The position numbers and the translations under genes were made by a program. From contig NZ_JAVAJF010000001.1 in the NCBI RefSeq assembly GCF_030718085.1, positions 744,001 to 808,000 of the forward strand: 64,000 nucleotides of DNA, given 5' to 3'. Source of the DNA: Marinobacter sp. MDS2. GTDB taxonomy: Bacteria > Pseudomonadota > Gammaproteobacteria > Pseudomonadales > Oleiphilaceae. Within the stretch, counting starts at the first letter, position 1. Each line of letters opens with the position of its first letter. Below, piece after piece: positions 39,688 to 64,000 of this stretch. The notes beneath the pieces are model-generated. The model was given only the letters and a program-made list of their open reading frames with translations, did no database searches and was not told where the DNA came from.

Positions 39688-39693
39688 GGATTT

Positions 39694-40443: not shown

Positions 40444-40492
40444 GCCTTACTCGCCATTCTTGACAAAGGGATAGCCCTGCCAATACTGCAGC

Positions 40493-41533: not shown

Positions 41534-41582
41534 GGGTTACCTAAGAGAAATGAATGAGGAATTCAGGCAGTATCAAAACAAA

Positions 41583-43556: not shown

Positions 43557-43559
43557 AAT

Positions 43560-45853: not shown

Positions 45854-45910
45854 CGAAAACCTCAGAGTGTCTTTTTATGAAAATTTGCTTGTGGAAAGCC
45901 TAAACTCATC

Positions 45911-45934
45911 TTTAATCTTCTCCCGAAGATTAAA
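45911..45934. repeat. Perfect hairpin between two GT4 genes
   Basis: TTTAATCTTC-TCCC-GAAGATTAAA, a 10-bp perfect stem with a 4-base loop and no T-run on either side. It lies in the 150-base gap that marks the edge of the AT-rich segment. Confidence 0.7.
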
Positions 45935-46003
45935 TACTAATCTAACTACCCTTGAAGCAGTTACATCAAAAACATGCGGGCAGATCTAAGCATTTTTTGT
46001 AAA

Positions 46004-47089: not shown

Positions 47090-47098
47090 ACAATCCAG

Positions 47099-48217: not shown

Positions 48218-48240
48218 GAAACCACCATAAAAAGTTTAAA

Positions 48241-49125
48241 TTAATTATTAACCCAAGACTCCAGATCCCTTTTCACTAAAGCCGAAAGACGTCTTACATC
48301 ATTATAAAAATACTCTTTCAACTCTTTTACGAACTGCTCTGATGGATAATCATACCGACTCTCTACGTTATTATAACGGTGAACTCCAGACAGGATACCT
48401 GTATTAAAGTTAATGCCGGCCTTTCTTTTTAATCTAGCAACAACCATCAAAAAATAGTGCAAACCCAAAAACTTTCTTTTTGTCGCCTTATTCGCATGAG
48501 TAAATTTTATTCTATCAAAGGGATCAATCTCTAAAAAACTCTGGAGATCCTTCCAAACTAGCTCGGGGCAATTTTTTATATCGTCCATTACAATGAACTT
48601 AACCCTTTCGGGAGACACAATCCGAAGCAACGCATCAACTTGTGAACCTAGCATACAAGCTTTCTTATACGCCATGTGCGAAGGATCCCCTCCCTTTAAG
48701 TCGAAGATTTTATCAAACCCACCTCGCGCTCTCGAATCTGATAACTCCCATGCCTTCACGAAATCTCTCTCTAGTTCGTGACCTGTATAAACTTTCTGAG
48801 CATGCAAAGAAATGGCCATTTCCACAGGATTTCTAAGACATACAATATACTTTGCACAGGGAAAACTCTGCTCAATAGAAACTATTGCCTCAGGGCTAAA
48901 CAAATACCAAACTGAACCTTCCGCAATGACTGAGTGACGACGGTCTGCACCTTCGAAATTGTTTAAATAATCAGTTAATTCGCTCTTCATCCCTTTATAA
49001 TTGTAAAAGAAGTCCAACTCTTTATTTTCTGAAAAAAAAACATCCGGGTGCTGAGCTAGCCAACCCGAAATGCTTGTAGTCCCGCACTTTGGAGCGCCAA
49101 TTAGAAATGTATTCGGATACTTCAT
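48241..49125 (-). CDS. PAPS-dependent sulfotransferase
   Basis: 294 residues. The 5'-phosphosulfate loop is GAPKCGTTSI (residues 10-19) and the 3'-phosphate site is IVCLRNPVEMAISLH; FLEIDPFDRIKFTH matches the C-terminal block of the Sulfotransfer_1 domain. No membrane segment or signal peptide, so it acts in the cytoplasm on nucleotide- or lipid-linked sugars. Lies in the AT-rich part of the capsule operon and implies a sulfated repeat unit. Confidence 0.9.
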   Translation of the reverse strand: MKYPNTFLIGAPKCGTTSISGWLAQHPDVFFSENKELDFFYNYKGMKSELTDYLNNFEGADRRHSVIAEGSVWYLFSPEAIVSIEQSFPCAKYIVCLRNPVEMAISLHAQKVYTGHELERDFVKAWELSDSRARGGFDKIFDLKGGDPSHMAYKKACMLGSQVDALLRIVSPERVKFIVMDDIKNCPELVWKDLQSFLEIDPFDRIKFTHANKATKRKFLGLHYFLMVVARLKRKAGINFNTGILSGVHRYNNVESRYDYPSEQFVKELKEYFYNDVRRLSALVKRDLESWVNN

Positions 49126-49129
49126 CTAG

Positions 49130-50122
49130 TTAAACCTTTACAAAAAGATCTTTCAACGCGCTACGAATTCCCTGATCTTCCCTGTAACCGCCAAAAACAT
49201 AATATCTCACTACATGGGCAAGCCTCTCTTTACGACTTATACGGACAATTTGTATTCGCCGCCTAATATGCTCACTTCGAACTTCCAGCTTCTTGATAGC
49301 ATTATTTCGGGCCTCTTGTCTCAATGAACCGAAAAACTTCTCACTTCTTTCCAAAGCGTCGATTAACGACAGCGAATTCTCCAAGGAACCGTGAAGTTCC
49401 TGTTCAAAGGAAGAAGACTGACTGTATATCTCTTTAGCTCTCCGGATTACGGCGGAGACAAAAAAAGACAAGGGACTTAAAGTATGATCATTTAGTGCAA
49501 TTTTTGATGTATTTTTACCGTGTCGCCGATAGAACTGAAGGGGTTTATCAATAATAATTTTCGCTTGAATTTTATCCGCGAGACCGACCAACCAGTTATC
49601 ATGCCCTGGATACGTTATAGGTATTGGCAGCGCCCACGTCAGGAAATCACGCCTGAAGGCGCAGCAACAGCCCATAACGAATGATTCGTTACTTAATCCG
49701 GCCTTCCTTATTCTTTGATACTTGGTATGTAACGAGACATTGAGCTCTGCATCTGATATCAAAGCATCATTCATTAGCACCAAAGCTTCTTGGTTATGCT
49801 CAGCAGCTCTCGTCATATACTCAATCTTTTCAGGAAGCCACACGTCATCTTGGTCACTTAGGAAGACCAGATCACCGGTCGTTTTCATCAGCGCCGCGTT
49901 AAAGTTGCCGCAGTAACCGAGGTTCTTTTCATTGCGATGAAACTCAACGGTAAAGGGCGCGGTTTTGGCGAACTCACGAACGAAGGCTTCGGTCTGGTCG
50001 GTAGAGCAGTCGTCTGTGATGATCAGTTCATCCGGCTGACGGGTCTGGGCTACGAAGCTTTGGAGTTGCTCTTGTATGTATTGGGCACCGTTGTAGGTGG
50101 CCATGGCTATGGAGATTTTCAT
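49130..50122 (-). CDS. Glycosyltransferase family 2 (rhamnosyltransferase-like)
   Basis: 330 residues, GT-A fold. MKISIAMATYNGAQYIQEQL, ELIITDDCSTDQTEAF, the DXD-type motif in LVFLSDQDDVW, and CCCAFRRDFLTWA. Related to the RfbN/RfbF-like rhamnosyltransferase group, in keeping with the dTDP-rhamnose genes in the operon (inference). Confidence 0.9.
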   Translation of the reverse strand: MKISIAMATYNGAQYIQEQLQSFVAQTRQPDELIITDDCSTDQTEAFVREFAKTAPFTVEFHRNEKNLGYCGNFNAALMKTTGDLVFLSDQDDVWLPEKIEYMTRAAEHNQEALVLMNDALISDAELNVSLHTKYQRIRKAGLSNESFVMGCCCAFRRDFLTWALPIPITYPGHDNWLVGLADKIQAKIIIDKPLQFYRRHGKNTSKIALNDHTLSPLSFFVSAVIRRAKEIYSQSSSFEQELHGSLENSLSLIDALERSEKFFGSLRQEARNNAIKKLEVRSEHIRRRIQIVRISRKERLAHVVRYYVFGGYREDQGIRSALKDLFVKV

Positions 50123-50145
50123 ATTTCCCGTTAAATACCTGAGGG

Positions 50146-50799
50146 TCAGATTTTGTAGGATAGCGTCGAATAGTCTTGCTTATAAAATTCCACAATTCGA
50201 TCGTAGTGACGCTCGAATTTCGCCTCGATTTCAGGATATTTCAAAGACCGTTTTTCCTGCCTGTCCGGGGTAAAGAGAGAGGTGAGCCATTTAGCCCACG
50301 AGTTGCGGTTTTCAGATTCATTGGAAAAGCCCAGAAATAATTTTTTAGCTCTCTCTACACCACCCTCTTCCAGCTTAAAAACTTGAGGCTGATGGGGACT
50401 CCTAGGAATAAATTCTACTTGAGGGCGAATGTGATTATCATATATGTAACTGTTTCCAAGATACTTTTCAAAAGTGTCAGAAACCCAATCATCAACTGAA
50501 AGTTCGGTAATTCCCTGAGTTCTCTGCCAGTAGTATTCCGATTTAAAGCGTGAGAATGGATTTCTTACCACGGTGAAAATAGAATCAAATTGTTCAAACT
50601 CCAATATGGATTCCAAGGGCTGTACGTGCAAATGCTGAAGACTCGCCTTGCAATATCGTATTTCTTTTAAGGACTTTCCACGAATAGAAAAACTCTCTTC
50701 CCACCCAAAATCATCAGCAATCTTTTCTATGGTAGATCCTGCAGACTTCGGAATATGAAGAAATAAAATATTGACTTTACCTTTTGAGAAAACCGGCAC
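50146..50799 (-). CDS. Sulfotransferase family 2 protein
   Basis: 217 residues from GTG 50799 (GGAGG 6 bases upstream). PAPS loop LHIPKSAGSTIEK (H15, K18, S19) and 3'-phosphate site TVVRNPFSRFKSEYYW, the Sulfotransfer_2 pattern seen in carbohydrate sulfotransferases. The second sulfotransferase in the operon and unrelated in family to the first, so two different positions or sugars may be sulfated. Confidence 0.88.
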   Translation of the reverse strand: MPVFSKGKVNILFLHIPKSAGSTIEKIADDFGWEESFSIRGKSLKEIRYCKASLQHLHVQPLESILEFEQFDSIFTVVRNPFSRFKSEYYWQRTQGITELSVDDWVSDTFEKYLGNSYIYDNHIRPQVEFIPRSPHQPQVFKLEEGGVERAKKLFLGFSNESENRNSWAKWLTSLFTPDRQEKRSLKYPEIEAKFERHYDRIVEFYKQDYSTLSYKI

Positions 50800-50814
50800 A
50801 AAAAGCCTCCAAAA

Positions 50815-52098
50815 TTAAAACGCTGCGGGTCTTATATTTAGCTTTTTAAGGACGAAATAAGCTAACACTAAATTCCAAACAACAATACTTAAAGCTACTG
50901 ATACCGCTGCACCAACTGCGCCGAATCGGGGAATCAGGAGGATGCAAAATACTATATTAATTAACACAGCAATAACTTGACCACCTAATGTAAATCTTTC
51001 GTAACCGCTCATTGACAGAAGATGTCCAACCGAACCGAAGAAAACGTTAATCAATTGCCCAATGGCAATAATTACAACAGGCCAGTACGAAATGGTCGCG
51101 TATTCCTCACCAAAAGCCAGGCGAATCAGCGGATCACCGCCAACAATCAAAATTCCAGCCACTGGTAGCGCTAAAAACAAGCTCCCTCGTGCCGACTTTC
51201 TGGCAAGGTTCTGGAGAAGAACCTGGTCTCCATCCCTGTAAGCCCCAACTATGTAGGGGGCAATGACCATATTGACGAGCATAAGAGACATTGCCACAAA
51301 TTGCCCGCCGCGCTCTGCAACACGCATAGCGGCAACTTGCTCGTCAGCGCTAAGAAACCCAAGAGCGATAATTCCGATTTGTGCATTAAATGTGCTAACC
51401 AGGGCAATCATGCTGAATGGTAATAATGCCCGTTTCCAACGCCCAACCTGATAGGTGGCAGCTACGCCTTTAGCGTCGCTTGGCTGGATTTTAAAAAACA
51501 TCCAACTCGCGATCAGGAATATCACGGCCCCACCAGCCACTTGGCTCCAGATAGCAGATTTCGCATCTAAATCGCCATACAAAGCCAAGACAGTAAACAG
51601 GACTAACATGACCACAGGCTGAATTAGCTGTCCCGGTATCTCAGCGTAGGCCGGGAAGCCTAAGCCTTTGATTGTCCCCGTTCTAACGGCGGCTAGACCG
51701 CTAAGAGGCACCATCATCAGAGCAATTGGCAGTAAAGACCATTTTGCATCCGAGGGTAACAGTTGTAGCACCACTCCCAGAACCCAGTAGCCGATCAGTA
51801 TTGCCGCTGCTACGAAGAACACCCAAACATGGGAAGCTCGCAGCGCACCTCGATAAAGCGACCAGCTTTTTGAGTGGGCGAAGGTTGCAACTTCTCTGGT
51901 TAGAAGCTGTGGTAGACCACCGCTTACTGGTAACGCGATGAGTGGAATCAACGCTATTACGAAGGCGTATTGGCCAAACCCTTCTGGCCCCAATGTCCGC
52001 GCCAGAATAATGCTTGTCGCGAGTCCGATGGGAATTGAGAAGAGCTTCATTGCTCCTACCCCCATGAAGCTCTTGATTAGCTGCGCTTTAAGGCTCAA
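50815..52098 (-). CDS. wzx: Oligosaccharide flippase (Wzx)
   Basis: 427 residues with about 12 hydrophobic segments; LARTLGPEGFGQYAFVIALI near the N-terminus is the family motif. Flips the capsule repeat unit. The start is uncertain: TTG 52098 keeps the usual amphipathic N-terminus, while ATG 52062 or 52047 would shorten it. Confidence 0.9.
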   Translation of the reverse strand: MSLKAQLIKSFMGVGAMKLFSIPIGLATSIILARTLGPEGFGQYAFVIALIPLIALPVSGGLPQLLTREVATFAHSKSWSLYRGALRASHVWVFFVAAAILIGYWVLGVVLQLLPSDAKWSLLPIALMMVPLSGLAAVRTGTIKGLGFPAYAEIPGQLIQPVVMLVLFTVLALYGDLDAKSAIWSQVAGGAVIFLIASWMFFKIQPSDAKGVAATYQVGRWKRALLPFSMIALVSTFNAQIGIIALGFLSADEQVAAMRVAERGGQFVAMSLMLVNMVIAPYIVGAYRDGDQVLLQNLARKSARGSLFLALPVAGILIVGGDPLIRLAFGEEYATISYWPVVIIAIGQLINVFFGSVGHLLSMSGYERFTLGGQVIAVLINIVFCILLIPRFGAVGAAVSVALSIVVWNLVLAYFVLKKLNIRPAAF

Positions 52099-52301
52099 GT
52101 TAAGGTCCGCGATTGATTTTGATTAGCGAGAGTTATGACTTATCACAGCCTATGGCTATGTTTGAGGCCAGATCACGTAGTAACCTGCAACTGATAAGAC
52201 TACGTTGTCTGCGTAATTATTCATTGCTGCTTGCTTTCACTGATGTCTCGTGTCCCGTCAGGTTAGTTCCCTCACCTACTGAGTGACGAAGATCCTTTTG
52301 A

Positions 52302-52332
52302 GCAAGGCGCGAGGCATTCAGCTACGCCTTGC
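52302..52332. terminator. Hairpin downstream of rfbC
   Basis: GCAAGGCG and CGCCTTGC are separated by 15 bases, with TTTTT on the plus-strand side. It lies in the 238-base gap between rfbC and wzx. On the minus strand the tail is not T-rich, so readthrough to wzx is likely. Confidence 0.45.
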
Positions 52333-52336
52333 TTTT

Positions 52337-52882
52337 TCAATAATACTCCGCAGCCGAAAAAGCCACGCCAGCTTTATCCTTCTCGGAGACTAGCGGTTCA
52401 CTCTCAGTATCTATCGGCCAAGTAATCATTAACGATTGATCCGCCCAGTGAATAGACCTCTCATAGTTAGGTGCATAGAAGTCCGTGCACTTATACTGAA
52501 AATCTGCCGTCTCACTGGTTACCAAAAAGCCGTGTGCAAACCCCGGTGGCACCCACAGCATGCGGTTGTTCTCTTCCGAGAGGTATTCCCCTACCCACTG
52601 GCCGAAGGTGGGGGAGTTGGCGCGCAGGTCTACGGCTACGTCAAACACTTCGCCACGGGTTACCCGCACTAGCTTGCCTTGTGGCTGTTTGATCTGGTAG
52701 TGCAAGCCACGCAAAGTGTTCTTTACCGAGCGGCTATGGTTATCTTGTACGAAGGTGGCGAATATTCCTGCCTCACGAAAAGCCTTTTCGTTCCAGGCTT
52801 CCATAAAGAAGCCACGTTCATCTCCAAAAACTCTGGGTTCAACGAGTTTCACGTCAGGAATCTTGGTTTCAGTGATTTTCAT
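52337..52882 (-). CDS. rfbC: dTDP-4-dehydrorhamnose 3,5-epimerase
   Basis: 181 residues, cupin-like RmlC fold. FGDERGFFMEAWNEKAFREAG, the catalytic His in TLRGLHYQ, RVTRGEVFDVAVDLR and the Tyr in FQYKCTDFY. Separated from rfbBDA by the acyltransferase gene. Confidence 0.96.
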   Translation of the reverse strand: MKITETKIPDVKLVEPRVFGDERGFFMEAWNEKAFREAGIFATFVQDNHSRSVKNTLRGLHYQIKQPQGKLVRVTRGEVFDVAVDLRANSPTFGQWVGEYLSEENNRMLWVPPGFAHGFLVTSETADFQYKCTDFYAPNYERSIHWADQSLMITWPIDTESEPLVSEKDKAGVAFSAAEYY

Positions 52883-52989
52883 ATAGGTAAGTAATGCTAA
52901 CTGAAAAATAGGGGTTAGTTATTTCCACCGGTTGGCAGAAGGTTTGCTGAGGATTTCGGCCAAGAGCAATTGCAGGACAAATGTTATCC

Positions 52990-54945
52990 TCATTCTTTTT
53001 TTCGACTAAGAGATTCAGCTACGACGGAAACTGCCCCGGAATACGACAAGTGATCGTCATCATAATAAATGGGAACGCCATTACGCTCTATATCACACCA
53101 AAGCTCATCACAGAATGACTCCCAAACAGGTATAAACTGAACGTCACTAGGAATTCGCTCTGAGATAAACTTATCAGAAACCCTTGCACGCTCTTCAACT
53201 TGGCCTCTTGGTATGCCACGGGGTACCTCTATACCTGCGTAACGAGCCAAGGCAATGGTGTGGGGGACACTAAAACCCGGTTCTGGAACCGAGCCAATAA
53301 CAATCACCTTAATATCGCGAGTGGACAGTCGATCTAGAGTTTTCTCCAAAGATCGCTCTACAACTCGCGCATTTTCTTGAACTGAGTGGCTAATCGTCTG
53401 CTCGTCTTCCAGAAAAGTTCGATTTGAACCGCCAACTTCTGGGCGCCATCCAGTCAGTTGGAGGGACCAACGTCCACCCAATATCACTTTATCGATTTGA
53501 GGATTGTTATCAATCTCCTCCCACACTTTTTCTCTGAAAGCATTGCAATCATTGCTTTTTGGCACATCGGCCCGTTTCGCTCCATCGAGCAGCGGGCATC
53601 CAGCTTTCCAATAGAGTGTACCCGCGCTATCACCCATCAATTCAGATGCCTCGACTGCCGGCCTTAATGCTGCCGCGTGGCTATCACCAATTATTGCGTA
53701 AGTTACAGCCGCGTCCGGATTTCCAAATCGACATCTATCTCGGTTATCAAAACCACTACACCGAGTGCGGAAAGGGTCCACATCCTCCGCCGCCGCTAAC
53801 GCAACGCGTGACGATTCGTCCAATCTGGCTGGGAAACCTGCGTAGGCAATTGAGACCAGCGCCAGCGCAGCCATAGCAACACTCCCCCCCGCTAGGGTTA
53901 TAAAGCTAACCTTTGCAGGCATTAAATCTCTTTTCCGGAAGGGCTGCTCCACAAAACGCCATGAAAGCCAGGCAAGAACAAATGTTGTCAGAATGGCTGC
54001 AACAGCTAATTCAAATTGAAGATGGACATTTGCGGTGCTAACGCGAAGTGTAGCAAGTACAGGCCAATGCCATAAGTAGAGCGAGTAGGATAGTAACCCG
54101 ATTAAGACTACAGGCTTATACATCAACACTTTGCGCGCGATCCATGCGGTTCCGTCACTATGTATGACGAGTGCAGCGCCCAAGCAAGGAATAAGGGCCA
54201 CCCAGCCAGGGAATATCATGTCACTATGAATATAGAAAACGGATAATAGAATCAGCCCAATACCCAGTATTGGGAGCGATTCTCTCAAAAATTGAGATTT
54301 GGCACGTGGAATTGCACTTGTCGCCAGAACAGCGCCAATTGCTAGTTCCCAAGCTCGGGCGGGAAGAAGGTAATAAGCAACTGAAGGTTTATTTACAGAA
54401 AGCCATAGACTTGCCGCAAAGGCCGCGATCGTGCCGACAACCAGAAAGCCCTTTATCGATACCCGAAGCTTACAAACGGCGATCAGAATTATTGGAAATA
54501 CAAAGTAAAACTGCTCCTCAACAGCCAAGGACCAAGTATGTAGCAATGGCATGAATTCTGTTGTTGGTGAAAAATATCCTGACTCGCTCCAAAAATAGAA
54601 GTTCGATAGCGACAGTAATGCGGCAATGCCCGATTCTGAAACGCTTACTGCTTGGTCAGGCAGGCTGATCACCTGAAAAACCGGCACTGTGACCAGAAGC
54701 ATTACAAGCAATGCGGGAATAATCCTGCGTACGCGCCTTTCGTAGAACCTTTTGAATGAGAAGCGGCCAGCTTGCACCTCACGAAGAATGATGGAGGATA
54801 TGAGGTAACCACTAATCACAAAGAAAATATCGACGCCAACAAAGCCGCCTGGCAACCAGCTAGCACCGGCGTGAAACAAGATAACCGGCAATACTGCAAA
54901 AGCACGAAGACCATCAATGTCTGCGCGGTATTTTAAATCGCTCAT
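52990..54945 (-). CDS. OafA/YrhL-type acyltransferase with SGNH domain
   Basis: 651 residues from ATG 54945. Membrane acyltransferase-3 domain (about 1-350): YRADIDGLRAFAVLPVILFH, GGFVGVDIFFVISGYLIS, and HTWSLAVEEQFYFVFP with the catalytic His/Glu region. A periplasmic SGNH hydrolase-like domain follows (about 420-650) with IIGDSHAAALRPAVE and the DxxH of DDDHLSYSGA. Probably O-acetylates the capsule repeat unit. It interrupts the rfb genes. Confidence 0.92.
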   Translation of the reverse strand: MSDLKYRADIDGLRAFAVLPVILFHAGASWLPGGFVGVDIFFVISGYLISSIILREVQAGRFSFKRFYERRVRRIIPALLVMLLVTVPVFQVISLPDQAVSVSESGIAALLSLSNFYFWSESGYFSPTTEFMPLLHTWSLAVEEQFYFVFPIILIAVCKLRVSIKGFLVVGTIAAFAASLWLSVNKPSVAYYLLPARAWELAIGAVLATSAIPRAKSQFLRESLPILGIGLILLSVFYIHSDMIFPGWVALIPCLGAALVIHSDGTAWIARKVLMYKPVVLIGLLSYSLYLWHWPVLATLRVSTANVHLQFELAVAAILTTFVLAWLSWRFVEQPFRKRDLMPAKVSFITLAGGSVAMAALALVSIAYAGFPARLDESSRVALAAAEDVDPFRTRCSGFDNRDRCRFGNPDAAVTYAIIGDSHAAALRPAVEASELMGDSAGTLYWKAGCPLLDGAKRADVPKSNDCNAFREKVWEEIDNNPQIDKVILGGRWSLQLTGWRPEVGGSNRTFLEDEQTISHSVQENARVVERSLEKTLDRLSTRDIKVIVIGSVPEPGFSVPHTIALARYAGIEVPRGIPRGQVEERARVSDKFISERIPSDVQFIPVWESFCDELWCDIERNGVPIYYDDDHLSYSGAVSVVAESLSRKKE

Positions 54946-55002
54946 CACTTTATCTCGTGTATGAATAATGCTGGCATCTACCAAATGTAGATCCGAGCTG
55001 GC

Positions 55003-55875
55003 TTACTTTGCTGTTTTAACAAGTTTTTTTAAGTAGTCGCCGTAGCTGTTCTTTTTTAGATTTTCGGCCTCGGCCAGCAATTGGTCTTTGCCAATAAAGC
55101 CCATGCGGAAGGCAATTTCTTCCAGACAGGCGATTTTCAGGCCCTGGCGCTTTTCCAGGGTTTCGATAAAGCCGCTGGCTTCGTGCAGGGAATCGAAGGT
55201 TCCGGTGTCCAGCCAGGCGAAGCCCCGGCCCAACAGTTCGACGCTCAGGTCGCCGCGTTCCAGGTAGGCCTGATTGACGCTGGTGATTTCCAGCTCTCCC
55301 CGGTGGCTGGGTTCTACCTGTTTGGCGATGTTAACTACATCGTTGTCGTAGAAGTAGAGGCCGGTTACGGCGTAATCGGATTTCGGGTTGGCCGGCTTTT
55401 CTTCGATGGAGATGGCTCGGTGGTTGTCATCAAACTCCACTACGCCGAAGCGCTCCGGGTCGGTTACCTGGTAGCCGAATACGGTGGCGCCCTTTTCCCG
55501 CTTGGCGGCGGTTTGCAGCATGTTGCTCAGGCCCTGGCCGTAGTAGATGTTGTCGCCGAGTACCAGGCATACGCTGTCATCGCCGATGAAATCTTCGCCG
55601 ATGATGAAGGCCTGGGCGAGGCCGTCCGGGCTGGGTTGTTCTGCGTAGTTGAGGTTAATGCCCCATTGGCTGCCGTCGCCGAGCAGGCGCTGGAAGCCTT
55701 GTTGGTCTTCGGGGGTGGTGATGACGAGGATATCCCGGATGCCCGCCAGCATGAGTACGGAGAGCGGGTAGTAGATCATGGGTTTGTCGTATACCGGGAG
55801 GAGCTGTTTGGATATGCCTCGGGTGATTGGGTAGAGGCGGGTGCCGGAGCCGCCGGCGAGGATTATTCCTTTCAC
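55003..55875 (-). CDS. rfbA: Glucose-1-phosphate thymidylyltransferase
   Basis: 290 residues. [27 protein letters not shown] is the nucleotidyltransferase loop; [29 protein letters not shown] and [11 protein letters not shown] follow. First step of dTDP-L-rhamnose synthesis. Regulated in many species by dTDP-rhamnose feedback. Confidence 0.97.
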
Positions 55876-55901
55876 TTAGAACTCCTTGAATTTGGTGCAG
55901 A

Positions 55902-55929
55902 GGGGTCTGTCCTCGTAGGGGCAGACCCC
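55902..55929. repeat. Hairpin repeat (copy 6)
   Basis: GGGGTCTGTCC-TCGTA-GGGGCAGACCCC between rfbA and rfbD. Loop TCGTA as in copies 7 and 8; flank CCCCGTCG shared with copy 7. Confidence 0.9.
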
Positions 55930-55943
55930 GTCGTAACATTTTT

Positions 55944-56023
55944 GCCACGAAATCCACTAAAGAACACGAAATAAAAAACAAAGATTTAAAGATTTTTTAG
56001 TGTTCTTTCGTGGGTTTAGTGGC
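55944..56023. repeat. Inverted repeat of GCCACGAAA units
   Basis: Left arm GCCACGAAATCCACTAAAG begins at 55944. The right arm, ending at 56023, is its near reverse complement and overlaps the last codons and stop of rfbD (Cys-His-stop). It can form a long hairpin downstream of rfbD. Confidence 0.85.
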
Positions 56024-56873
56024 AAATTTCTTCGAGATATTCATTGAGCGTCAGCGCCAGTTGGCTTTGCCAGTCTGGGAGCTGGATGTTTAGGGCTTGC
56101 TGCAATCTGGTTACGTCCATCCTTGAGTTCAGCGGGCGTTTTGCCGGTGTTGGGTAGTCGCTGGTGGGGATGGGGTTTGCTTTTGTGTTTTTGCCGGCCA
56201 GGCGGAAGATTTCTTTGGCGAAGCCTTGCCAGCTGGTTTCGCCGGTTGGGGCCAGGTGGTAGAGGCCGGTTTCCAGCTTACTATGGATGGCTAGTGCGGT
56301 TACCTGGGCGATGAGCCTTGCCGGTGTGGGTGCGCCGATCTGGTCTGCCACTATGTTGAGTTCGGTTTTGCTTTCGGCCAGGCGCAGCATGGTTTTCATG
56401 AAGTTGTTGCCGCGGGCGCTGTATACCCAGCTGGTGCGGAAGATGAGGTGGTCGGCTCCGCTTTGCTGGATGGCTTCATCGCCTTGTAGTTTGGTTTGGC
56501 CGTATACGCTCAGGGGGCCTGTGGGGCTGGTTTCCTGCCACGGGGCTGTGCCGGTGCCGGGGTAGACGTAGTCGCTGCTGTAGTGGACCAGGCGAGCGTT
56601 GTTGGCCTTTGAGTATTCTGCAAGCTGTTTGGGTAGGCCTGCGTTCAGGCGCTGGGCTTCGGTTTGCTGGGTTTCGGCGGCGTCTACGGCTGTCCAGGCT
56701 GCGGCGTTTACGATCAAGTTTGGCTTGATATTGGCCAGAAAGCGGTCAACGGCTTGCTCGTCCATTAGGTTCAGTTCTACTCTGCTTGGGGCGGATATGG
56801 TGCCCAAAGGGGAGAGAGTGCGATGGAGTTCGAAGCCTACTTGGCCGGTTTTGCCTAGTAATAGTATGTTCAT
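56016..56873 (-). CDS. rfbD: dTDP-4-dehydrorhamnose reductase
   Basis: 285 residues, SDR fold. MNILLLGKTGQVGFELHR binds NADPH; NAAAWTAVDAAE, YSSDYVYPGTG and the YxxxK in SVYGQTKLQGDEA are typical RmlD blocks. Its 3' end is built into a dispersed repeat. Confidence 0.95.
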   Translation of the reverse strand: MNILLLGKTGQVGFELHRTLSPLGTISAPSRVELNLMDEQAVDRFLANIKPNLIVNAAAWTAVDAAETQQTEAQRLNAGLPKQLAEYSKANNARLVHYSSDYVYPGTGTAPWQETSPTGPLSVYGQTKLQGDEAIQQSGADHLIFRTSWVYSARGNNFMKTMLRLAESKTELNIVADQIGAPTPARLIAQVTALAIHSKLETGLYHLAPTGETSWQGFAKEIFRLAGKNTKANPIPTSDYPTPAKRPLNSRMDVTRLQQALNIQLPDWQSQLALTLNEYLEEICH

Positions 56874-56909
56874 AGTTTGGGTGTGGTGTTGCCGAATTTG
56901 GGTGGCATG

Positions 56910-56937
56910 GGGGTCTGTCCTCGTAGGGACAGACCCC
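56910..56937. repeat. Hairpin repeat (copy 7) with adjacent 31-base duplication
   Basis: GGGGTCTGTCC-TCGTA-GGGACAGACCCC between rfbD and rfbB. The sequence GACAGACCCCGTCGGTGCTT onward is repeated imperfectly at 56968-56998 (GACAGGCCCCTTCGATGCTT). Confidence 0.88.
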
Positions 56938-56994
56938 GTCGGTGCTTTGGTGCCTTAGCTCCCTATGGACAGGCCCCTTCGATGCTTTGGTGAC

Positions 56995-58074
56995 TTAGTC
57001 TTTGCTTGCTACGCCCAGGCGTTCACGCTGGTAGCTGCCGTCTTGTACTCGTTGGCACCACTCTTGGTTATCCAGGTACCACTGGACGGTTTTTCGGATG
57101 CCGGTTTCGAAGGTTTCTTCCGGGGTCCAGCCCAGCTCTTTCTCGATTTTGCTAGCGTCGATCGCGTAGCGCATGTCGTGGCCGGGGCGATCTTTTACGG
57201 TGATGATGAGGTCGCGGTAGCTGGTTTCCTGTGGGCGCAGTTCCTGCAGGATGTCGCACAGGGTGTGGACTACTTCGATGTTCTGTTTTTCGTTGTGGCC
57301 ACCGATGTTGTAGGTTTCGCCTACTTTGCCTTCTGTTACCACTTTGTAGAGGGCTCGGGCGTGGTCTTCAACAAACAGCCAGTCTCGAATTTGGTCGCCT
57401 TTGCCGTATACCGGGAGCGGCTTGCCTTCCAGGGCGTTGAGGATCATCAGCGGGATGAGCTTTTCCGGGAAGTGGTAGGGGCCGTAGTTGTTACTGCAAT
57501 TAGTGACCAGTACCGGCAGGCCGTAGGTGCGTTGCCAGGCGCGTACCAGGTGGTCTGAGCTGGCTTTGCTGGCGCTGTAGGGGCTGCTTGGGGCGTAGGC
57601 GGTTTGTTCGGTGAACAGGTGTTGCTCTGCATCAGCCGCTTCACTTGGATGCGGGAGGTCGCCGTAGACTTCATCCGTGCTGATGTGGTGGAAGCGGAAG
57701 TTGGCTTTTTTATCGCCATCCAGTGCCTGCCAGTATTGGCGGGTGGCTTCCAGCAGGGTGTAGGTGCCTACGATGTTAGTTTCAATGAACTCTGCAGGGC
57801 CGTCTATGGAACGGTCTACGTGGCTTTCTGCAGCCAAGTGCATAACGGCGTCTGGTTGGTGTTGGGCTAGTACGCGCTCTAGCTCGGCGTGGTTGCAGAT
57901 GTTTACTTGTTCGAAGGTGTAGCGCTCGCTATCGCTGACCTCCGCCAGGCTTTCTAGGTTGCCGGCGTAGGTGAGTTTGTCGACGTTGACCACTTCATCG
58001 TTGGTGTTGGTGATGATGTGGCGGATGACGGCGGAGCCTATGAAGCCGGCGCCGCCGGTTACTAAGAGTTTCAT
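56995..58074 (-). CDS. rfbB: dTDP-glucose 4,6-dehydratase
   Basis: 359 residues from ATG 58074. [20 protein letters not shown] (NAD site), [15 protein letters not shown], the TDE catalytic motif in [12 protein letters not shown], and YxxxK in [13 protein letters not shown]. The frame stays open upstream through a hairpin repeat to 58362, but that stretch has no family similarity and is excluded. Confidence 0.96.
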
Positions 58075-58117
58075 TTTGGTGCTTTGCTCGGGTTTTGAGT
58101 TTGTCGCTGGCTTTGGT

Positions 58118-58145
58118 GGGGTCTGACCTCGTAGGGTCAGACCCC
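58118..58145. repeat. Hairpin repeat (copy 8)
   Basis: GGGGTCTGACC-TCGTA-GGGTCAGACCCC between rfbB and wzc, followed by TTTGTAGA as in copy 3. Confidence 0.9.
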
Positions 58146-58175
58146 TTTGTAGATTGCCGGGTTGGTGCTGCTTTC

Positions 58176-60383
58176 CTACTCGGATTTGTAGGCGTAGTTG
58201 TAGTAGCCGTAGTAGCCGTAACTGGTGGCTGCTTTCTTTTCCATCGCGTTTAGAATTACGCCTTTGATCGTCACGCCACCGTTCGCTAAGCGGGTTTCGG
58301 CTATCTGAACTTCTTTTGGTGTGGTTACCCCAAAACGAACGACCATCAGTGTTGTGCCGCACTGTTTGCCGATGATGGCTGCGTCGGTTACGGCTAGAAT
58401 CGGAGGCGTGTCTATGATCACCAAATCAAATTGGCTACTCAGATACTCCATAAACTCAGTAAAACGTGCCTGCATCAGTAGCTCTGACGGATTGGGAGGA
58501 GCACTGCCTCGGCTTACCCAACTGAGGCGTTCCAATTCCGTAGGCCGTACAGCTTGCTCGAATTCCAGCTTGCCGGCGAGCACGTCAGACAAGCCGTCTT
58601 TAGAATCTTGGCCTAGCTCTTGGTGTACATGGCCTTTGCGCATATCGCCGTCTACCACTACCACTCTCTGGCCGGCCTGCGCACAGATTGCGGCGAGGTT
58701 GGTGGACGTGAAACTTTTACCGATACTCGGGCTCGGGCCCGTAATCACCAAGCGGTTGTCGGTACTTTCCATCATGGCGAAGTGTAGCGAGGTACGCAGG
58801 CTTCGAATGGCTTCAATCGAGAGATCCGCGGGGTTACGCACGGCTAACAGGCCGGCGTTGGTCCGCTTGCCTCGGGACTTCTTCGCTTTCTCGTTGCGGC
58901 GTTTTTCTTCTTCAGAAAGCGGCACGGTTGCGTATACCGGAAGGTCCAGCTCTTCCAATTGTTCGGGGGAGACAAGTCCACGGTTAAAGGCGGCACGGAG
59001 CAACACGATGATCATGGCCAGCAGCAACCCACTCATGCCTGCCACGGCGACAATCAAGTTGCGTTTAGGAGCTACCTGGCCTTGAACTACGGCATCGTCC
59101 AGTATGCGTACATTACCCACGGTACCGGCACGGGCCAGTCTCAACTCTTGCATACGGTTGAGCAGTTGCACGTAGATTTCTTGAGTGACTTTTACATCGC
59201 GGCTCAGGCGCAGGATTTGCTGCTGGGTTTCTGGCAGGTTACCCGTGCGCTCTTCCAAGCGCTCTTTTTCCCGCATCAGCTGTTCTTTCTTTTCAAGCAG
59301 TGAACGGTAAACAGGATGATTTGGCGTAAAACGGCGAGCCAGTTCAGATTCCTGTAACTGCAGTTCGTTCAAACTACTTTCAATCGCTACCAAGCTGTTT
59401 AGTGCGTTCTGGGTTTCAAAACTCAGGTCTATGCTGTCACTTTGCAGACGGTATTCGTTTAAGCGGTTTTCTGCTTCGTTTAACTGCTCTCGAACCTTAG
59501 GGGCTTGCTCTTCCAGAAATTCCAGGCTTTTATCGGCCTCGGCAGCTTGGCGGGCTACGTTCTGAGTGAGGAAGACCTCGTTCATGGCATTCAGGCTACT
59601 TACGAGCTCTTGTTCGTTCACACCTGTCAGCTCCAACCGGAGCATGCCGGTATCCTTACCTAAGGTGTTAATGCTCAGGCGTCTCAATAAACCTCTGATT
59701 GCTGCGAGCCGGCTTTTCTTAACCACGATGAAAGTAGCACCGGCGGGAGCGCTTAGCTCAGAAACAGTTAGCTCAATCCATGGTTTTTCTATTGTGAGCA
59801 TCTCGCCCACGATTCCCTTACCCAAGCTATCACCATGTCCGTTTAACAGGGTGTAACTATTGTTGCCATCGGAGCGCAAGGTGAACTGCAGCGTCTCGCT
59901 GTTGTGAGCGGTTACTAGCCGCCCTATGCGCAGCGTGTCGCCCGCCCACACCGTGTTACTTCCCTCTGCAAGACTGGGGCGTTTGATGCCTTTGCGTAAC
60001 AACCAGTCACCAATTACCGGCCACGTGCTTGGAACAATCTCTACAGCCAAGCCGGTCTGATCTACAACCTGTCCGAGAATCAGGCGTGAGCGTAGTATCT
60101 CAACTTCGGTACTGGTGCTGGGTTCCTGTTCGCCTAGCAATTTGTTCATATCAGCACCACCGATCGTGCCGGATTTTTGCTCAATCTGCACCAGCGCATC
60201 CGCTTTGTATTCAGGTGTTGCCAAAGTGGCGTAGACAAGGCCAGCCAGTGCGAGAACAACCGTCAGAATGACGATGAATATTTTATGATCCCACAGGCTG
60301 CCCAGTAGAAAACCAATATCAATTTCATCGTTATCTTGTGCGGTTTCGCGGGTACGCGTTGAAGCATTGTTTGCTTGAGTCAT
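58176..60383 (-). CDS. wzc: Polysaccharide co-polymerase and tyrosine autokinase (Wzc)
   Basis: 735 residues. N-terminal Wzz domain (membrane helix about 32-52), a long periplasmic coiled coil with the [11 protein letters not shown] segment before the second helix (about 445-465), then a cytoplasmic BY-kinase: Walker [19 protein letters not shown]' [11 protein letters not shown], Walker [11 protein letters not shown]. The C-terminus ends in a tyrosine cluster ([15 protein letters not shown]), the autophosphorylation tail removed by Wzb. Controls capsule polymerisation and export through Wza. Confidence 0.96.
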
Positions 60384-60398
60384 TCGTCGCTCTTGCTG

Positions 60399-60833
60399 TT
60401 ATTTCAATCGGGGAAGCCAGGCGTGTACGGCTTCTTCGAGTAGTTGATGTACGTGCACGAAAGCTTCGCGGCTTTTTTTATAGGGGTCTGGAACGTCCGG
60501 CTTTCCCGGTAGCCAGTGGCTGAGCAGCATGGTTTTACCGGCGGCAGTTGGATCCAGCGTGCGAACCTGGGCCCGCTGCCCTTCACTCATAACAAAAATA
60601 AGATCGGCTCGCCGCAGGTGATCAATCGTCACTTGCCTTGCCCTATGCTGGCTGAGATCCAGGCCCGCCTGTTCTGCCAGGCCAGCCGCCGTTGCGTCTG
60701 CGCCATGATCTACGAGCGCCCCCAACCCTGCAGATTCAACGGTCTTTTCTGGCAGACTCTTTTTCAACAATGCTTCTGCGACCGGGCTACGACAAATGTT
60801 GCCCACGCAAAGCACCAATATATGATTAAACAT
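60399..60833 (-). CDS. wzb: Low-molecular-weight protein tyrosine phosphatase (Wzb)
   Basis: 144 residues from ATG 60833. Catalytic CX5R loop in LCVGNICRSP and the general-acid Asp in VPDPYKKS. Dephosphorylates the Wzc tail. It begins 10 bases after wza and ends 15 bases before wzc. The frame is open further upstream but that part overlaps wza and is excluded. Confidence 0.95.
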   Translation of the reverse strand: MFNHILVLCVGNICRSPVAEALLKKSLPEKTVESAGLGALVDHGADATAAGLAEQAGLDLSQHRARQVTIDHLRRADLIFVMSEGQRAQVRTLDPTAAGKTMLLSHWLPGKPDVPDPYKKSREAFVHVHQLLEEAVHAWLPRLK

Positions 60834-60843
60834 GGGCTTAGGC

Positions 60844-61968
60844 TCAGTTACCGAGATTAAGGGCCCGGTCACCCAGGAACAGGGCCGAGAAGGATGGCAC
60901 CAACAACGATACGACACGGTTCCAGCGCGCCAGAGGGGCAGCAGTTACATAGACCATGTCGCGATTTTGCAGATTAAAACTGTCCGCCAACACCAGGGCT
61001 GTCGCGTCTTTCAGGTTCAGCTGATACATGTCGATTAAGTGTTCGCTCTCTGGTGAGGCGTTTTCCGAACGCCTTACAACGAACACTCCCGTCGCATCCG
61101 ACTGGCGCTGGTCCAGGCCACCCACATTCGAAATCGCTTCGGCCAGGGTTAGGCCATTTCGCCCCATCGGCAGGGTTTTCGTGGTGCCCACTTCACCCAA
61201 GACAAACACTTTCTGATCGTCACCCAGTGGAACGTTGATCACGTCGCCACTTTGCAGCAATACGTTATGCAGTTTGTTGCCCTGCTCGTACACGGCTTTC
61301 AATGAGAGGCGATAATCCATGCCATCACGGGTAAGGGTTACGTTGCGCCAGTCTGCACCTTCTGACATATCCAACCCGCCCGCCTGGCTGATGGCATCGA
61401 CGATGCGCGTGGGTACATTCGTGAGCGGGTAAACCCCTGGCTTCTCAACCGCACCACTCACGTAAACCCGCTGGCTGCGAAAACCGGCCACTGACACATC
61501 TACCTGGGGCGATTCGATGTAAGTTGATAGGCGACTGGCGATTTCCTCACGGATTTCCAGCGTCGTAAGCCCTACCACATCTACATAGCCGATGTACGGG
61601 TAGTAGATGGTGCCGTTCTCATTCACCACGTTGCCGGATTCTTGGGAGCTGCGGTTGGAGCCTGCCGGTATGGTCAACTCTGGGTGGTCCCAAACCGTGA
61701 CCTGTAAAACATCACCAATACCGATGCGGTATTCGTATTCGCTGTCTTCGCGGATAAGCTCGGCGCTAGGTACCGGCACTTCGGCCGCGATGGCGTGGCG
61801 CAAGGTATCAGGTCCAATGCGGCTGACGTTCACCAAGCTCGAGAGGTTTTCTTCTTTCGGGCTTTCGTAATCGGCATTCCAGCCGCCAGTACTGATGTGC
61901 GACCCAGGTGCGAAGGCGCAGCCTTGCAGAGCCAATAAAGCGAAAGGGAGCAAAATCCTTAAAAACAT
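60844..61968 (-). CDS. wza: Outer-membrane polysaccharide export lipoprotein (Wza)
   Basis: 374 residues. Lipoprotein signal with lipobox LQGC (Cys17). Poly_export domain YRIGIGDVLQVTVWDHPEL, then SLBB repeats (VYVSGAVEKPGVYPLTNVPT and VFVLGEVGTTKTLPMGRNG), and a C-terminal amphipathic helix region that forms the outer-membrane pore. Forms the octameric export channel contacting Wzc. Confidence 0.95.
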   Translation of the reverse strand: MFLRILLPFALLALQGCAFAPGSHISTGGWNADYESPKEENLSSLVNVSRIGPDTLRHAIAAEVPVPSAELIREDSEYEYRIGIGDVLQVTVWDHPELTIPAGSNRSSQESGNVVNENGTIYYPYIGYVDVVGLTTLEIREEIASRLSTYIESPQVDVSVAGFRSQRVYVSGAVEKPGVYPLTNVPTRIVDAISQAGGLDMSEGADWRNVTLTRDGMDYRLSLKAVYEQGNKLHNVLLQSGDVINVPLGDDQKVFVLGEVGTTKTLPMGRNGLTLAEAISNVGGLDQRQSDATGVFVVRRSENASPESEHLIDMYQLNLKDATALVLADSFNLQNRDMVYVTAAPLARWNRVVSLLVPSFSALFLGDRALNLGN

Positions 61969-62060: not shown

Positions 62061-63557
62061 CTAAAAGTGATAACGCCAACTCGCGCCGGCAGACCACTGA
62101 TCGAGTTCACCCGAAGCCAACTCGATTTTCTTGTCGGTGCCGCGCAGGTTGATCTCCAGCCTGCCCTTGAGGAAATCGGTGCTATAACCAAGATTAAGAA
62201 TGCCGACTTTCTGGTTGTTTGCGGGAACAAAGTACTGCACGCTGGGGTCTGGCATCACAGTGCGTACAACGCCGTCACTGTTCAGCTCTGCGTAGCTGAT
62301 AGTCGCAGAGAGGTTGTCGCCGTTATCGAAAAACTGGAACGCGCCAAGGGAGATCGCGTCAGCGTCGCCTTCGAATGTGCTGGCCAAGTTTCGGCCGTGG
62401 TGTCGGTAGCCGGTATTGTAGTTAAAGTGGTTGTACGTAATATTGGGCATGGCGTCGCCAAAGAGGTAGTCCGCCGTGGTGTTGGCATATTCCAAGAACC
62501 ATTGCTGGTCTGTGTTGAGGAAACCCGTCGTCCAATCCAACCCCAACAACCAAGACTTCCGTGCGGGGAAAGCCCCTGCTTCGTCTTCACCCATCATTTG
62601 GGTGTACAGCCCCATACTCTGGTTGCCCACAGAAAAGCCGTAACGGATGTCGATACTGGCGAGCTGGTTGCCCGGGTCGTTTTCGCCACCGTCTTGGCTG
62701 TTGTCTCTACCCGTTAGGGCATTCCACAAAGTGGAGCCGTTTTCAGGCCGACCTTCGCCGCCGAACATAATGGCCCGCGAGAGGCCGACATCAAGGCCCT
62801 GTATTGGGCGGAATGTAACTCGCATGCCGATGAGCTTGGGTTCGTCAATCACTCGCTCATCCTGAAACTGGCCGGCAAAGAGGGTGACATTCCAAGGGCC
62901 GATCCAGCTCAGCCATGAGGATGCGGGTGCGATGTCCCGCTTTCGATTTAGCCACACCGCCGGAATGGGCCGCGCGTTATTCGAAAGAATCAAGCTAGAT
63001 TGCCAACCCGGCCCCCACCAGCGGTCGATCGCGCCCGCGCCAAACACCCAGTTGCCAAGCGTGGCAGCGAGGTAGCTGCCATCGTAACGGTATTCTTCAT
63101 CGTCTGTCGGGTTAGCGACAACCGAAGGCGATAGGCCAAGCGCCCAGTATTCGCCTTGCCATTGCAAATCTAGTGTTGCTTGCCCTTCTTCCTGGCGGGT
63201 ACCGCTAAAGCCCTGTACCAACGGCTGCTCGGAACTGCCCGCCAGTGAGACCTCGGCGCGTGTACCGCTGGAAAATTGCGCTTGTTGTTCGGCATTCAAA
63301 TACGCCATGGCACCGGCTGTTGCGGTGGCATCGGAGGTAACACTGCTGTTGATGCCTTTCGCTACACTGCTCCACATCACCGGCCAGGTAGTAACAGTTC
63401 GATCAAAATGACCGCGGTCCGCCAGCTTTTGCAGTGCAAAACGGGCACGAGCATCGCCGGGTTCGATCCAAGGTGAGGCATAGGTGGCCGTGGTGGTAAC
63501 AAGGCCGATCAGGCACGCTACCGCCCCACCGACCCGAGTCCAGTGCGTTAAGGGCAT
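62061..63557 (-). CDS. wzi: Capsule assembly protein Wzi
   Basis: 498 residues from ATG 63557. Signal peptide MPLTHWTRVGGAVACLIGL... with cleavage after about residue 28 (ATYA-S). An outer-membrane beta-barrel of the Wzi family: IDRWWGPGWQSSLILSNNARPIPA is the family hallmark, and it ends in aromatic SWRYHF typical of barrel C-termini. Anchors capsule to the cell surface in E. coli. First gene of the operon; the ops element lies within codons 11-15 or so. Confidence 0.93.
   Translation of the reverse strand: MPLTHWTRVGGAVACLIGLVTTTATYASPWIEPGDARARFALQKLADRGHFDRTVTTWPVMWSSVAKGINSSVTSDATATAGAMAYLNAEQQAQFSSGTRAEVSLAGSSEQPLVQGFSGTRQEEGQATLDLQWQGEYWALGLSPSVVANPTDDEEYRYDGSYLAATLGNWVFGAGAIDRWWGPGWQSSLILSNNARPIPAVWLNRKRDIAPASSWLSWIGPWNVTLFAGQFQDERVIDEPKLIGMRVTFRPIQGLDVGLSRAIMFGGEGRPENGSTLWNALTGRDNSQDGGENDPGNQLASIDIRYGFSVGNQSMGLYTQMMGEDEAGAFPARKSWLLGLDWTTGFLNTDQQWFLEYANTTADYLFGDAMPNITYNHFNYNTGYRHHGRNLASTFEGDADAISLGAFQFFDNGDNLSATISYAELNSDGVVRTVMPDPSVQYFVPANNQKVGILNLGYSTDFLKGRLEINLRGTDKKIELASGELDQWSAGASWRYHF
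63514..63525 (-). promoter_or_regulatory. ops/JUMPstart element for RfaH
   Basis: The minus strand reads GGGGCGGTAGCGTG (63527-63514), containing the complete 12-base ops core GGCGGTAGCGTG plus upstream GG as in JUMPstart. It is on the non-template strand of the capsule operon, 32 bases into wzi, and rfaH itself lies just upstream. Confidence 0.85.
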
Positions 63558-63660
63558 ACGATTTACTTTTTCAGTGCAGGGAAAAAAGCCAAGAAAGGAA
63601 GGCCCTAACGTGATCCCTGTCAGGTTTTTGAAAAAAATTACTATTCCGAAGCGGTGGGGA

Positions 63661-63688
63661 ATTCTACTAGAAGCTGCGTGACAAACAA
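63661..63688 (-). promoter_or_regulatory. Possible sigma-70 promoter of the capsule operon
   Basis: TTGTTT, 16 bases, TAGAAT on the minus strand, about 105 bases before the wzi ATG and about 135 before the ops core, a typical RfaH-leader distance. Confidence 0.4.
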
Positions 63689-63770
63689 GTGACAATTACT
63701 GTTGCATGCAAATAATCAACAAGTTACCAACGTAAACTTTTGTAAAAGGCCTAATATGGGGTCATAATAT

Positions 63771-63784
63771 GGGGTCAGACCCCC
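63771..63784. repeat. GGGGTCAGACCCC palindrome (copy 9)
   Basis: Palindrome followed by GATACATTT as in copy 1; preceded by a short direct duplication of ATATGGGGTCA (63755-63765 and 63768-63777). Lies between rfaH and wzi. Confidence 0.85.
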
Positions 63785-63827
63785 GATACATTTGAGAGCT
63801 CTAAACGCACCCTGACCTGCGTTTAGC

Positions 63828-64000
63828 TTAAGACCGAATTGCCGACACCGGCACACTCACCCGCTGCTGTTTCTGCATGAAGCTGATTAGCACAATGGCG
63901 CGCTCTTCGCCGTCGTAAGCCTGAAAAATAGCGCCCAAGCCTTTGAACGGGCCATCGTCCAGCTCTATTGCCTGCCCTGCCTTAATACCACCCTGCTCCG
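63828..64000 (-). CDS. rfaH: Transcription antiterminator RfaH, C-terminal fragment
   Basis: The last 56 residues are visible, EQGGIKAGQAIELDDGPFKG...VSAIRS, running off the right edge. GxxVxIxxGPFxGLxAIF is the KOW-domain block of RfaH/NusG, and the DGEERAIVLISFM continuation is RfaH-like. RfaH is recruited at ops and suppresses pausing and Rho termination in long surface-polysaccharide operons. Its position immediately upstream of wzi fits control of this operon. Confidence 0.85.
   Translation of the reverse strand, partial: EQGGIKAGQAIELDDGPFKGLGAIFQAYDGEERAIVLISFMQKQQRVSVPVSAIRS

Follow-up and report, generated by a model that had tools for sequence, protein, structure and literature searches.

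In a review (PMC6391919), the ops element through which RfaH acts is located in untranslated leaders. The window, as we call the whole 64-kb stretch of Marinobacter DNA analysed here, holds a single exact copy of the 12-base ops core, and this copy lies not in an untranslated leader but in codons 11-15 of wzi, the first gene of a capsule operon. The question raised by this locus is whether an ops element that is translated can be a working RfaH target and, if so, what its position behind a start codon is for. The answer that we consider probable, while leaving substantial room for doubt, is that the translated ops is part of a 48-base start-codon-plus-ops module that heads RfaH-linked Marinobacter capsule operons, with RfaH-mediated ribosome capture. 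The features of the locus are these:

63828..64000, minus strand: 3' end of rfaH; the gene continues past the window, and the complete gene (L002:7829-8314, minus strand) encodes 161 amino acids.
63558..63827, minus strand: leader between rfaH and wzi, the final 40 bases of which are hardly conserved across the genus.
63510..63557, minus strand: 48-base conserved cassette, from the start codon through ops to CTG (codons 1-16), delimited by an information profile.
63555..63557, minus strand: wzi start codon, ATG, with no Shine-Dalgarno sequence before it according to anti-Shine-Dalgarno energies; the M. adhaerens plasmid homologue is annotated from the same ATG.
63527..63545, minus strand: possible small RNA hairpin just upstream of ops, with weak covariation.
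63514..63525, minus strand: ops core, GGCGGTAGCGTG, an exact match, present at this offset in 52 of the 58 wzi-bearing genomes of the genus.
62061..63557, minus strand: wzi, capsule assembly outer-membrane protein, 498 amino acids (PF14052, 294.5 bits).
60844..61968, minus strand: wza, polysaccharide export protein, the second gene (NF011658, 445.5 bits, cut-off 333).
37473..61968, minus strand: rest of the capsule block, identified by gene content (wza, wzb, wzc, rml genes, flippase, sulfotransferases, glycosyltransferases, EpsG and epimerase).

The first base of ops lies 32 bases past the A of the wzi ATG (position 63557), and in the wzi frame the element is read as GGG GCG GTA GCG TGC. It is on the coding, and hence non-template, strand of the operon, at the head of a long polysaccharide operon in a genome that has rfaH. 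The original prediction of a full 12-base core on the minus strand was exact, as was its longer form GGGGCGGTAGCGTG, which results from a GG directly 5' of the core; the span that it gave, 63514-63557, runs from the end of ops through the A of the start codon. It also placed the element at the head of a 26-kb same-strand capsule operon. A capsule block of ca. 26 kb is indeed present (ca. 37.5-63.6 kb), but the run of genes on the same strand extends further, to ca. 18.4 kb.

A chance match had been expected well under once per window, and the computed expectation is ca. 0.008 exact matches (128,000 starts on the two strands, divided by 4^12); when up to two mismatches are allowed, shuffled windows contain 5.3 matches on average. 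Over the 3.45 Mb of the genome, the 12-mer matches exactly once and its reversed control also once, and we dropped this count as proof of ops. Because the reversed control also occurs once, the 12-mer alone lacks genome-wide significance; what is significant is its place. The flanked 19-mer TGGGGCGGTAGCGTGCCTG is unique, its next best match having two mismatches, and the reversed control of the 19-mer is absent even with up to three mismatches. Since the element lies within codons 11-15 of wzi and not in an untranslated leader, we regard it as a variant arrangement of ops. The label ops/JUMPstart applies to the core, which is present, but not to the JUMPstart RNA as a whole. That RNA (Rfam RF01707), placed in 5' UTRs in PMC2864571, covers the same stretch and ends in GGGGCGGUAGCGUG, as does the sequence here, but the locus scores 15.1 bits, short of the gathering score (35). 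None of eight other Marinobacter loci passed this threshold (one untranslated site had a listed match, at 21.3 bits), and membership of the Rfam family was rejected.

The gene upstream of wzi was correctly predicted to be rfaH. The complete protein scores 154.7 bits with TIGR01955 (cut-off 144.5) and 145.2 bits with PRK09014 (cut-off 124). In having a regulator gene that adjoins the target operon, the locus resembles those of operon-linked NusG paralogues (UpxY, LoaP and monomorphic RfaH); it differs from UpxY and LoaP in that the protein scores as RfaH and falls below the cut-offs for both of these families (77.9 vs 100 and 72.6 vs 125 bits, respectively). Residues of RfaH that contact ops or maintain autoinhibition are described in PMC5995543 and PMC7593976. 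Three ops-contact residues of E. coli RfaH, K10, H20 and R73, are identical here (K11, H21 and R74), whereas the fourth, R23, is replaced by N24, an asparagine found in 25 of 25 aligned sequences from the genus. By alignment, the autoinhibition residues E48, I93 and F130 are kept as E49, I94 and F130. The locus shares with the E. coli RfaH/ops system (the waaQ, rfbB and wza leaders) an identical 12-base core heading long polysaccharide operons, an RfaH with counterparts of K10/H20/R73 and E48/I93/F130, and the lack of a good ribosome binding site. It differs in the order of its parts: the Marinobacter start codon is 32 nt before ops, which is translated, whereas in E. coli the start codon comes after ops. 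In the two E. coli K-12 regions examined, the three ops copies have their first base ca. 87, 95 and 190 nt upstream of annotated starts. A second difference is that Marinobacter rfaH is usually near its target.

To count as present in the survey of 90 genus genomes, rfaH had to give a match of ca. 51% identity or more, weaker NusG-like matches being scored as absent. By this measure rfaH and an ops site occur together in 75 genomes, rfaH alone in one (G060), a site alone in three and neither in 11 (p = 1e-10). The association is tighter for the cassette: rfaH is present in all 68 cassette genomes, and the cassette occurs in none of the 14 genomes without an rfaH match (four of which are incomplete, at 62-85%), including the three with a site only (G032, G076 and G085). 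Where both lie on one contig, the cassette is at most 5 kb downstream of rfaH on the same strand in 46 of 62 genomes, near it in another orientation in three (49 of 62 in any orientation) and more than 5 kb away in 13; in six cassette genomes rfaH is on another contig. When the nearest ops site of any class is considered, 47 of 63 are at most 5 kb downstream of rfaH on the same strand. Dependence on RfaH is very likely.

The original prediction was to be abandoned if the element proved not to be conserved in relatives in which rfaH adjoins wzi. The outcome favoured the prediction. A protein search gave wzi matches in 69 of 145 relatives, of which 58 belong to the same genus (a few matches were split into pieces, in which case the N-terminal piece was used). 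An exact ops lies in frame at +32 in 52 of the 58, and there are no near misses. In the other six (G009, G018, G023, G039, G043 and G075), wzi comes second in the operon, encodes an unrelated signal peptide and lacks ops, and the cassette is found ca. 1.5 kb upstream, at the first gene. Thus, position in the operon, not gene identity, determines where the element is found. The annotated wzi of the M. adhaerens HP15 plasmid pHP-187 also starts at this ATG, with ops at +32. Outside the genus, 11 genomes have a wzi match, and ops was in the gene at none of the eight starts examined (G107, G114 and G142 were left out).

Codon usage separates conservation of the element from that of the peptide. 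In 30 full-length wzi genes, for which median nucleotide identity in the rest of the gene is 65%, 122 gap-free columns are invariant in amino acid (M and W excluded). Four of the five ops codons, GGG GCG GTA GCG, are identical in all 30 genes; the fifth, TGC, becomes TGT in three, a change at the base just outside ops. Outside ops, not one of the 117 amino-acid-invariant columns, 76 of them four- or sixfold degenerate, uses a single codon. The third base is shared by at least 29 of the 30 genes in 9 of 15 columns from codons 2-16, compared with 7 of 461 beyond (p = 1.6e-11), and that of codon 3 is always A though the amino acid varies (L, S or I). The overlap of ops with the Wzi signal-peptide codons, as originally proposed, is real, with nucleotides held there as well as amino acids; it is near certain from these codon patterns that selection acts on ops at the nucleotide level, beyond the amino acids. 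The GAVAC within the encoded peptide recalls the lipobox pattern; a lipoprotein reading is less likely, because an AxA site before APW follows.

Across the genus, RGGGCGGTAGCGTG was found in 101 of 124 genomes, at 126 places, vs 15 places for the reversed control. Leaving out G163 and G013:C11 and merging the two identical contexts of G070 gave 123 distinct sites in 100 genomes. The sites were gathered by the exact ops core, so the invariance of ops within this set is by construction, and the unbiased figure is the 52 of 58 given above. At 76 sites the element is translated into a long first gene and at 10 into a shorter frame; the frame is broken before ops at two, and 35 are untranslated or chance occurrences. 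The 76 comprise 65 wzi genes and 11 YjbH-like genes, the latter recognised by a shared LAFPGYSG motif (PF06082 was confirmed for one). The cassette is thus portable, heading unrelated first genes, and its frame is nearly always open. For the 65 wzi sites, mean information rises from 0.33 bits over the 40 positions preceding the ATG to 1.72 at offsets 0-31 and 2.00 within ops (offsets 32-43, by construction), then declines to 1.60 at offsets 44-47 and 0.51 at offsets 48-74; over all 76 translated sites, it falls to 0.07 bits at offset 49. For the 11 YjbH-like sites, which are few and closer to one another, the same windows give 0.57, 1.90, 2.00, 1.89 and 0.78 bits. Information is low before the ATG and high from the ATG to base 48; therefore, the conserved unit begins at the start codon. 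To judge from this profile, the unit under selection is the 48-base cassette, from the start codon to just past ops, and the stretch appears to be a clear case of one sequence in three roles: DNA signal, initiation region and signal peptide.

Operons whose first gene needs no signal peptide mostly retain the frame as well. Seven operons begin with a gene of ca. 490 amino acids (identified in one case as a PF02397 sugar transferase), and in six of these the cassette is kept as an open ORF of 22-42 codons. In five (G009, G018, G023, G075 and G149) the following ATG precedes the leader-ORF stop codon by 1 to 14 nt; in G043 the mechanically chosen start is 19 nt before the leader stop, and six codons further in the same frame another ATG overlaps that stop as ATGA. 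A leader stop that overlaps the next start is the usual look of translational coupling, which argues that the cassette frame is really translated. In the seventh operon (G039) and in G044 the frame stops at codon 6 and the ops core is retained; thus, translation through ops is not indispensable. The leader ORFs of G071 and G147 end 58-72 nt before the next start, and the short-frame class (L) also includes G054, in which the wzi frame ends early, and the second site of G004, which has no clear next gene.

The untranslated class is organised differently. A possible gene start was found within 140 nt at 27 of its 35 sites, 35-60 nt after ops in 21 of the 27, and 18 of the 27 starts are Wzz-like (PF02706 was confirmed for one). 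No frame of at least 100 codons crosses ops from a start within 120 nt at any of the 35 sites; therefore, the translated sites have one distance only. Some genomes, e.g. G010, G019, G052 and G082, carry untranslated sites beside cassettes, so the genus uses both arrangements.

We also searched for translated ops outside the genus. Among 369 class-wide genomes the pattern ATG-N29-ops matched in four (two for the reversed control), and long open frames were seen in only two of the four, our own genome and G185. The G185 gene is EPS-export lipoprotein-like and preceded by a Shine-Dalgarno-like sequence, in a 75%-complete genome that is the entire sample of its family. Class-wide, RGGGCGGTAGCGTGNNTG was found in 14 of the 369 genomes, at 15 places, compared with three for the reversed control. 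Apart from our own genome, ops is crossed at four sites in one genus (G324, G435 twice and G530) by a long frame that has an ATG or GTG 21 nt upstream, and the G232 site is inside a mechanical frame of 122 codons; none of the remaining nine sites has a frame of at least 80 codons that starts upstream and crosses ops. Several of 18 order-level loci with the 12-mer are also inside mechanical frames. One of the order-level sites, G116 (L082), is near an rfaH and has an ATG 35 nt upstream of ops, in a frame that looks like untranslated sequence ahead of a regulator-like start. A scan of named species, in which second codons with a middle C were excluded, gave 26 stretches, one of which extends at least 100 codons from an ATG (238 codons, in an Acidobacteria MAG). 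The class-wide, order-level and named-species searches thus yielded no convincing independent origin of a translated ops outside the genus, G185 being one candidate.

How might ribosomes start at the cassette? At -20 to -4 of the 76 cassette starts we found no Shine-Dalgarno sequence: the mean anti-Shine-Dalgarno energy is -0.93 kcal/mol vs -1.06 for shuffles, and it differs from the -5.27 kcal/mol of control genes, the 43 annotated genes of one M. adhaerens plasmid (p = 2e-13). Energies of -4.5 or lower occur at 3 of the 76 cassette starts compared with 26 of the 43 control genes. The absence is not special to the cassette gene, because wza, the second gene, also lacks a Shine-Dalgarno sequence in 28 loci with mechanically picked starts. 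As for RNA structure, the possible hairpin at +13..+31 has 155 of 160 cells paired in 32 haplotypes, vs a shuffle mean of 151.4, and 11 of 2000 shuffles are as good. It was rejected as the main feature: covariation is weak, and its place is not kept in untranslated sites. If formed, the hairpin would compete with the 30S subunit on the AUG.

Work on the known system, as described in PMC5995543, PMC6391919 and PMC11001881, indicates that ops pauses polymerase at U11, that the non-template ops hairpin binds RfaH, and that RfaH refolds so that its KOW domain binds S10 and the 30S subunit is brought to messages without a Shine-Dalgarno sequence. The pause is described with a 10-bp hybrid (PMC11001881). 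In the same 2024 structural paper, capture of the ribosome takes place between ops and a start codon that follows within 100 nt, and capture at ops followed by movement to the downstream start codon is supposed; the paper states that 30S vs 70S recruitment and the need for RNA during loading are undetermined. Recruitment, pausing and coupling at the Marinobacter ops would run as follows. Polymerase would start at a promoter within or ahead of the rfaH-wzi interval, then pause at U11 of ops, where RfaH, usually encoded close by, would bind the non-template hairpin, open and refold its KOW domain. At this pause the AUG would already have emerged from polymerase, its A standing 43 nt from the RNA 3' end; subtracting the start codon and the 10-bp hybrid leaves 30 nt, or ca. 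10 codons. The KOW domain would then capture a 30S subunit (or pioneer ribosome) directly on the displayed AUG rather than guide it to a start made later. We propose direct capture because the start has no Shine-Dalgarno sequence, and because 10 codons falls inside the range of 7-11 codons given for the spacer of TTC-B, a tightly coupled ribosome-polymerase complex, in PMC12820379 (spacer counting there may differ). The coupled, Rho-resistant complex would go on to transcribe the long capsule block, and the genes at 37473..61968 are what the RfaH-modified polymerase would be expected to cover. Extension of RfaH dependence to the distal sulfotransferase genes, which the original prediction took to follow, is plausible.

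We put forward this specific version tentatively, as something near an even proposition that we would not lean on. It holds that the cassette is an inverted, fixed module in which the AUG would be shown ca. 10 codons behind the halted polymerase, and fold-switching RfaH would clamp the ribosome on it; the short ORF through ops would be kept for this even where the peptide has no other evident use, and in capsule operons the module would double as the signal peptide of the first export protein. The fixed spacing of +32 may reflect inheritance of one ancestral cassette and not selection on distance.

An unlikely but serious alternative is that a working ops merely overlaps a gene, with RfaH acting there as an antiterminator and the order of AUG and ops having no role in ribosome loading. 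Plain antitermination needs no defined distance to a start codon; it fits the ops elements that the same genus keeps in untranslated leaders before Wzz-like genes, most of them 35-60 nt upstream of the start, and the two cassettes in which the frame is lost and the ops core is kept. It does not account for conservation that starts sharply at the start codon and includes third bases up to ops, for the ORF that is kept in six of seven cases needing no signal peptide and ends at the start of the next gene, or for the missing Shine-Dalgarno sequence at the cassette.

An improbable reading is that the in-frame ops pause is a synchroniser, at which polymerase waits for the pioneer ribosome as in attenuator leaders and RfaH is secondary. 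A start codon shortly before a strong pause is what such a device needs, and short leader ORFs in some operons and a possible hairpin just upstream of ops would suit it; there is precedent in the trp leader, where translation reportedly releases the paused polymerase, as Landick is said to have found in 1985. Against this, the ops loop bases read by RfaH are held as strictly as the pause bases (52 of 52 exact), the cassette is missing from every genome without an rfaH match (14 of 14), and covariation in the hairpin is weak. More improbable still is that capsule loci are swapped at the cassette, a recombination joint kept uniform by exchange. Near-identical cassettes do precede unrelated first genes (wzi, yjbH-like and sugar transferase-like), and one M. 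adhaerens genome has wzi cassettes on two contigs, one of them plasmid-sized, but these two cassettes differ outside ops and not within it, and uniformity ends at functional borders, the ATG on one side and a few bases past ops on the other; the tie to rfaH would also go unexplained, though such exchange could act beside the main explanation. Finally, the idea that conservation is of the signal peptide at the protein level, with ops coincidental, is scarcely credible: the peptide MTxKHWxLVGGAVACL is itself conserved, but the frozen codons and third bases contrast with the rest of wzi, unrelated proteins share the cassette, wzi in second place has a different signal peptide, and the ops core persists in G039 and G044 despite their broken frames.

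Our preferred reading, a start-codon-plus-ops module with RfaH-mediated ribosome capture, builds on what is known, namely the RfaH/ops system itself and the ops element in an untranslated leader; what is new is an ops element inside coding sequence, behind the start codon. Leaving aside papers on Aeromonas, Azotobacter and Plesiomonas that mention Marinobacter and RfaH, we found no published description of ops inside a coding sequence in a search that covered subscription literature thinly. Searches for ops that are limited to leaders will miss translated targets. Synonymous changes could separate the element from the peptide, and shifts of the ATG could separate coupling from antitermination. 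With a start codon that precedes ops by a constant distance, this genus provides a natural experiment on how RfaH may load ribosomes without a ribosome binding site.

On the 3' side of the sulfotransferase-bearing capsule block, and co-directional with it, lie two further groups of genes, the first of them immediately next to the block:

Window 31663-36430, minus strand: sulfate-activation genes and a sulfate/citrate-type transporter
Window 18367-31523, minus strand: a second polysaccharide set, continuing the same-strand run

The first group encodes a CysD-type PAPS-reductase-domain protein and a CysN-type EF-Tu-like GTPase, and these sulfate-activation genes are a likely source of PAPS for a sulfated capsule. 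The second comprises a family-4 glycosyltransferase, a flippase, a protein of the Wzy/O-antigen ligase type, and UDP-sugar enzymes. The original prediction described a same-strand capsule operon of 26 kb; the co-directional run extends further, to about 45 kb.

Several copies of an inverted repeat of the GGGGTCTGACCCC type occur on both sides of rfaH and its neighbours (L002:7780-10040, in the locus that holds the complete gene). One ORF lies in the same region:

L002:9318-9965: ORF resembling a REP-associated transposase

The cassette peptide (window 63513-63557, minus strand), encoded by the unit running from the wzi start codon through ops, contains the sequence GAVAC, which is similar to a lipobox, with Cys15 as its cysteine. 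However, an AxA site before APW follows GAVAC on the C-terminal side, and ordinary signal peptidase cleavage is therefore more likely than the lipobox reading.

Outside the genus, the distant gammaproteobacterium G185 has the 12-base ops at the identical +32 position:

G185:C67:2456-2499 (L223): ops at +32, within the signal-peptide region of a lipoprotein that resembles polysaccharide-export proteins

A Shine-Dalgarno-like sequence precedes this gene, and the RfaH of G185 scores 172 bits, above the family cut-off; the match comes from one genome and may be due to chance. Four ops sites in three genomes of one other genus (L265, L266, L267 and L270; G530, G435 and G324) share a GTGCGGGGGAG stretch. 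At each, an ATG or GTG lies 21 nt upstream of ops and a long open frame crosses it. These sites may represent another arrangement in which ops is translated, or else a repeated sequence in a genome of high G+C content. In several Enterobacteriaceae (L225, L226, L227, L231, L236, L237, L240, L242 and L244), a tiny ORF starts 32 nt upstream of ops and terminates before reaching it, with the peptide MNLMGIG (MRLGSS in L227); the next ORF is 886-890 aa long in L225, L226, L227, L236 and L237.

Within Marinobacter, the cassettes of G039 (L051) and G044 (L141) have a stop at codon 6, yet retain the ops core. These two cassettes are natural variants, useful for telling translation apart from ops.
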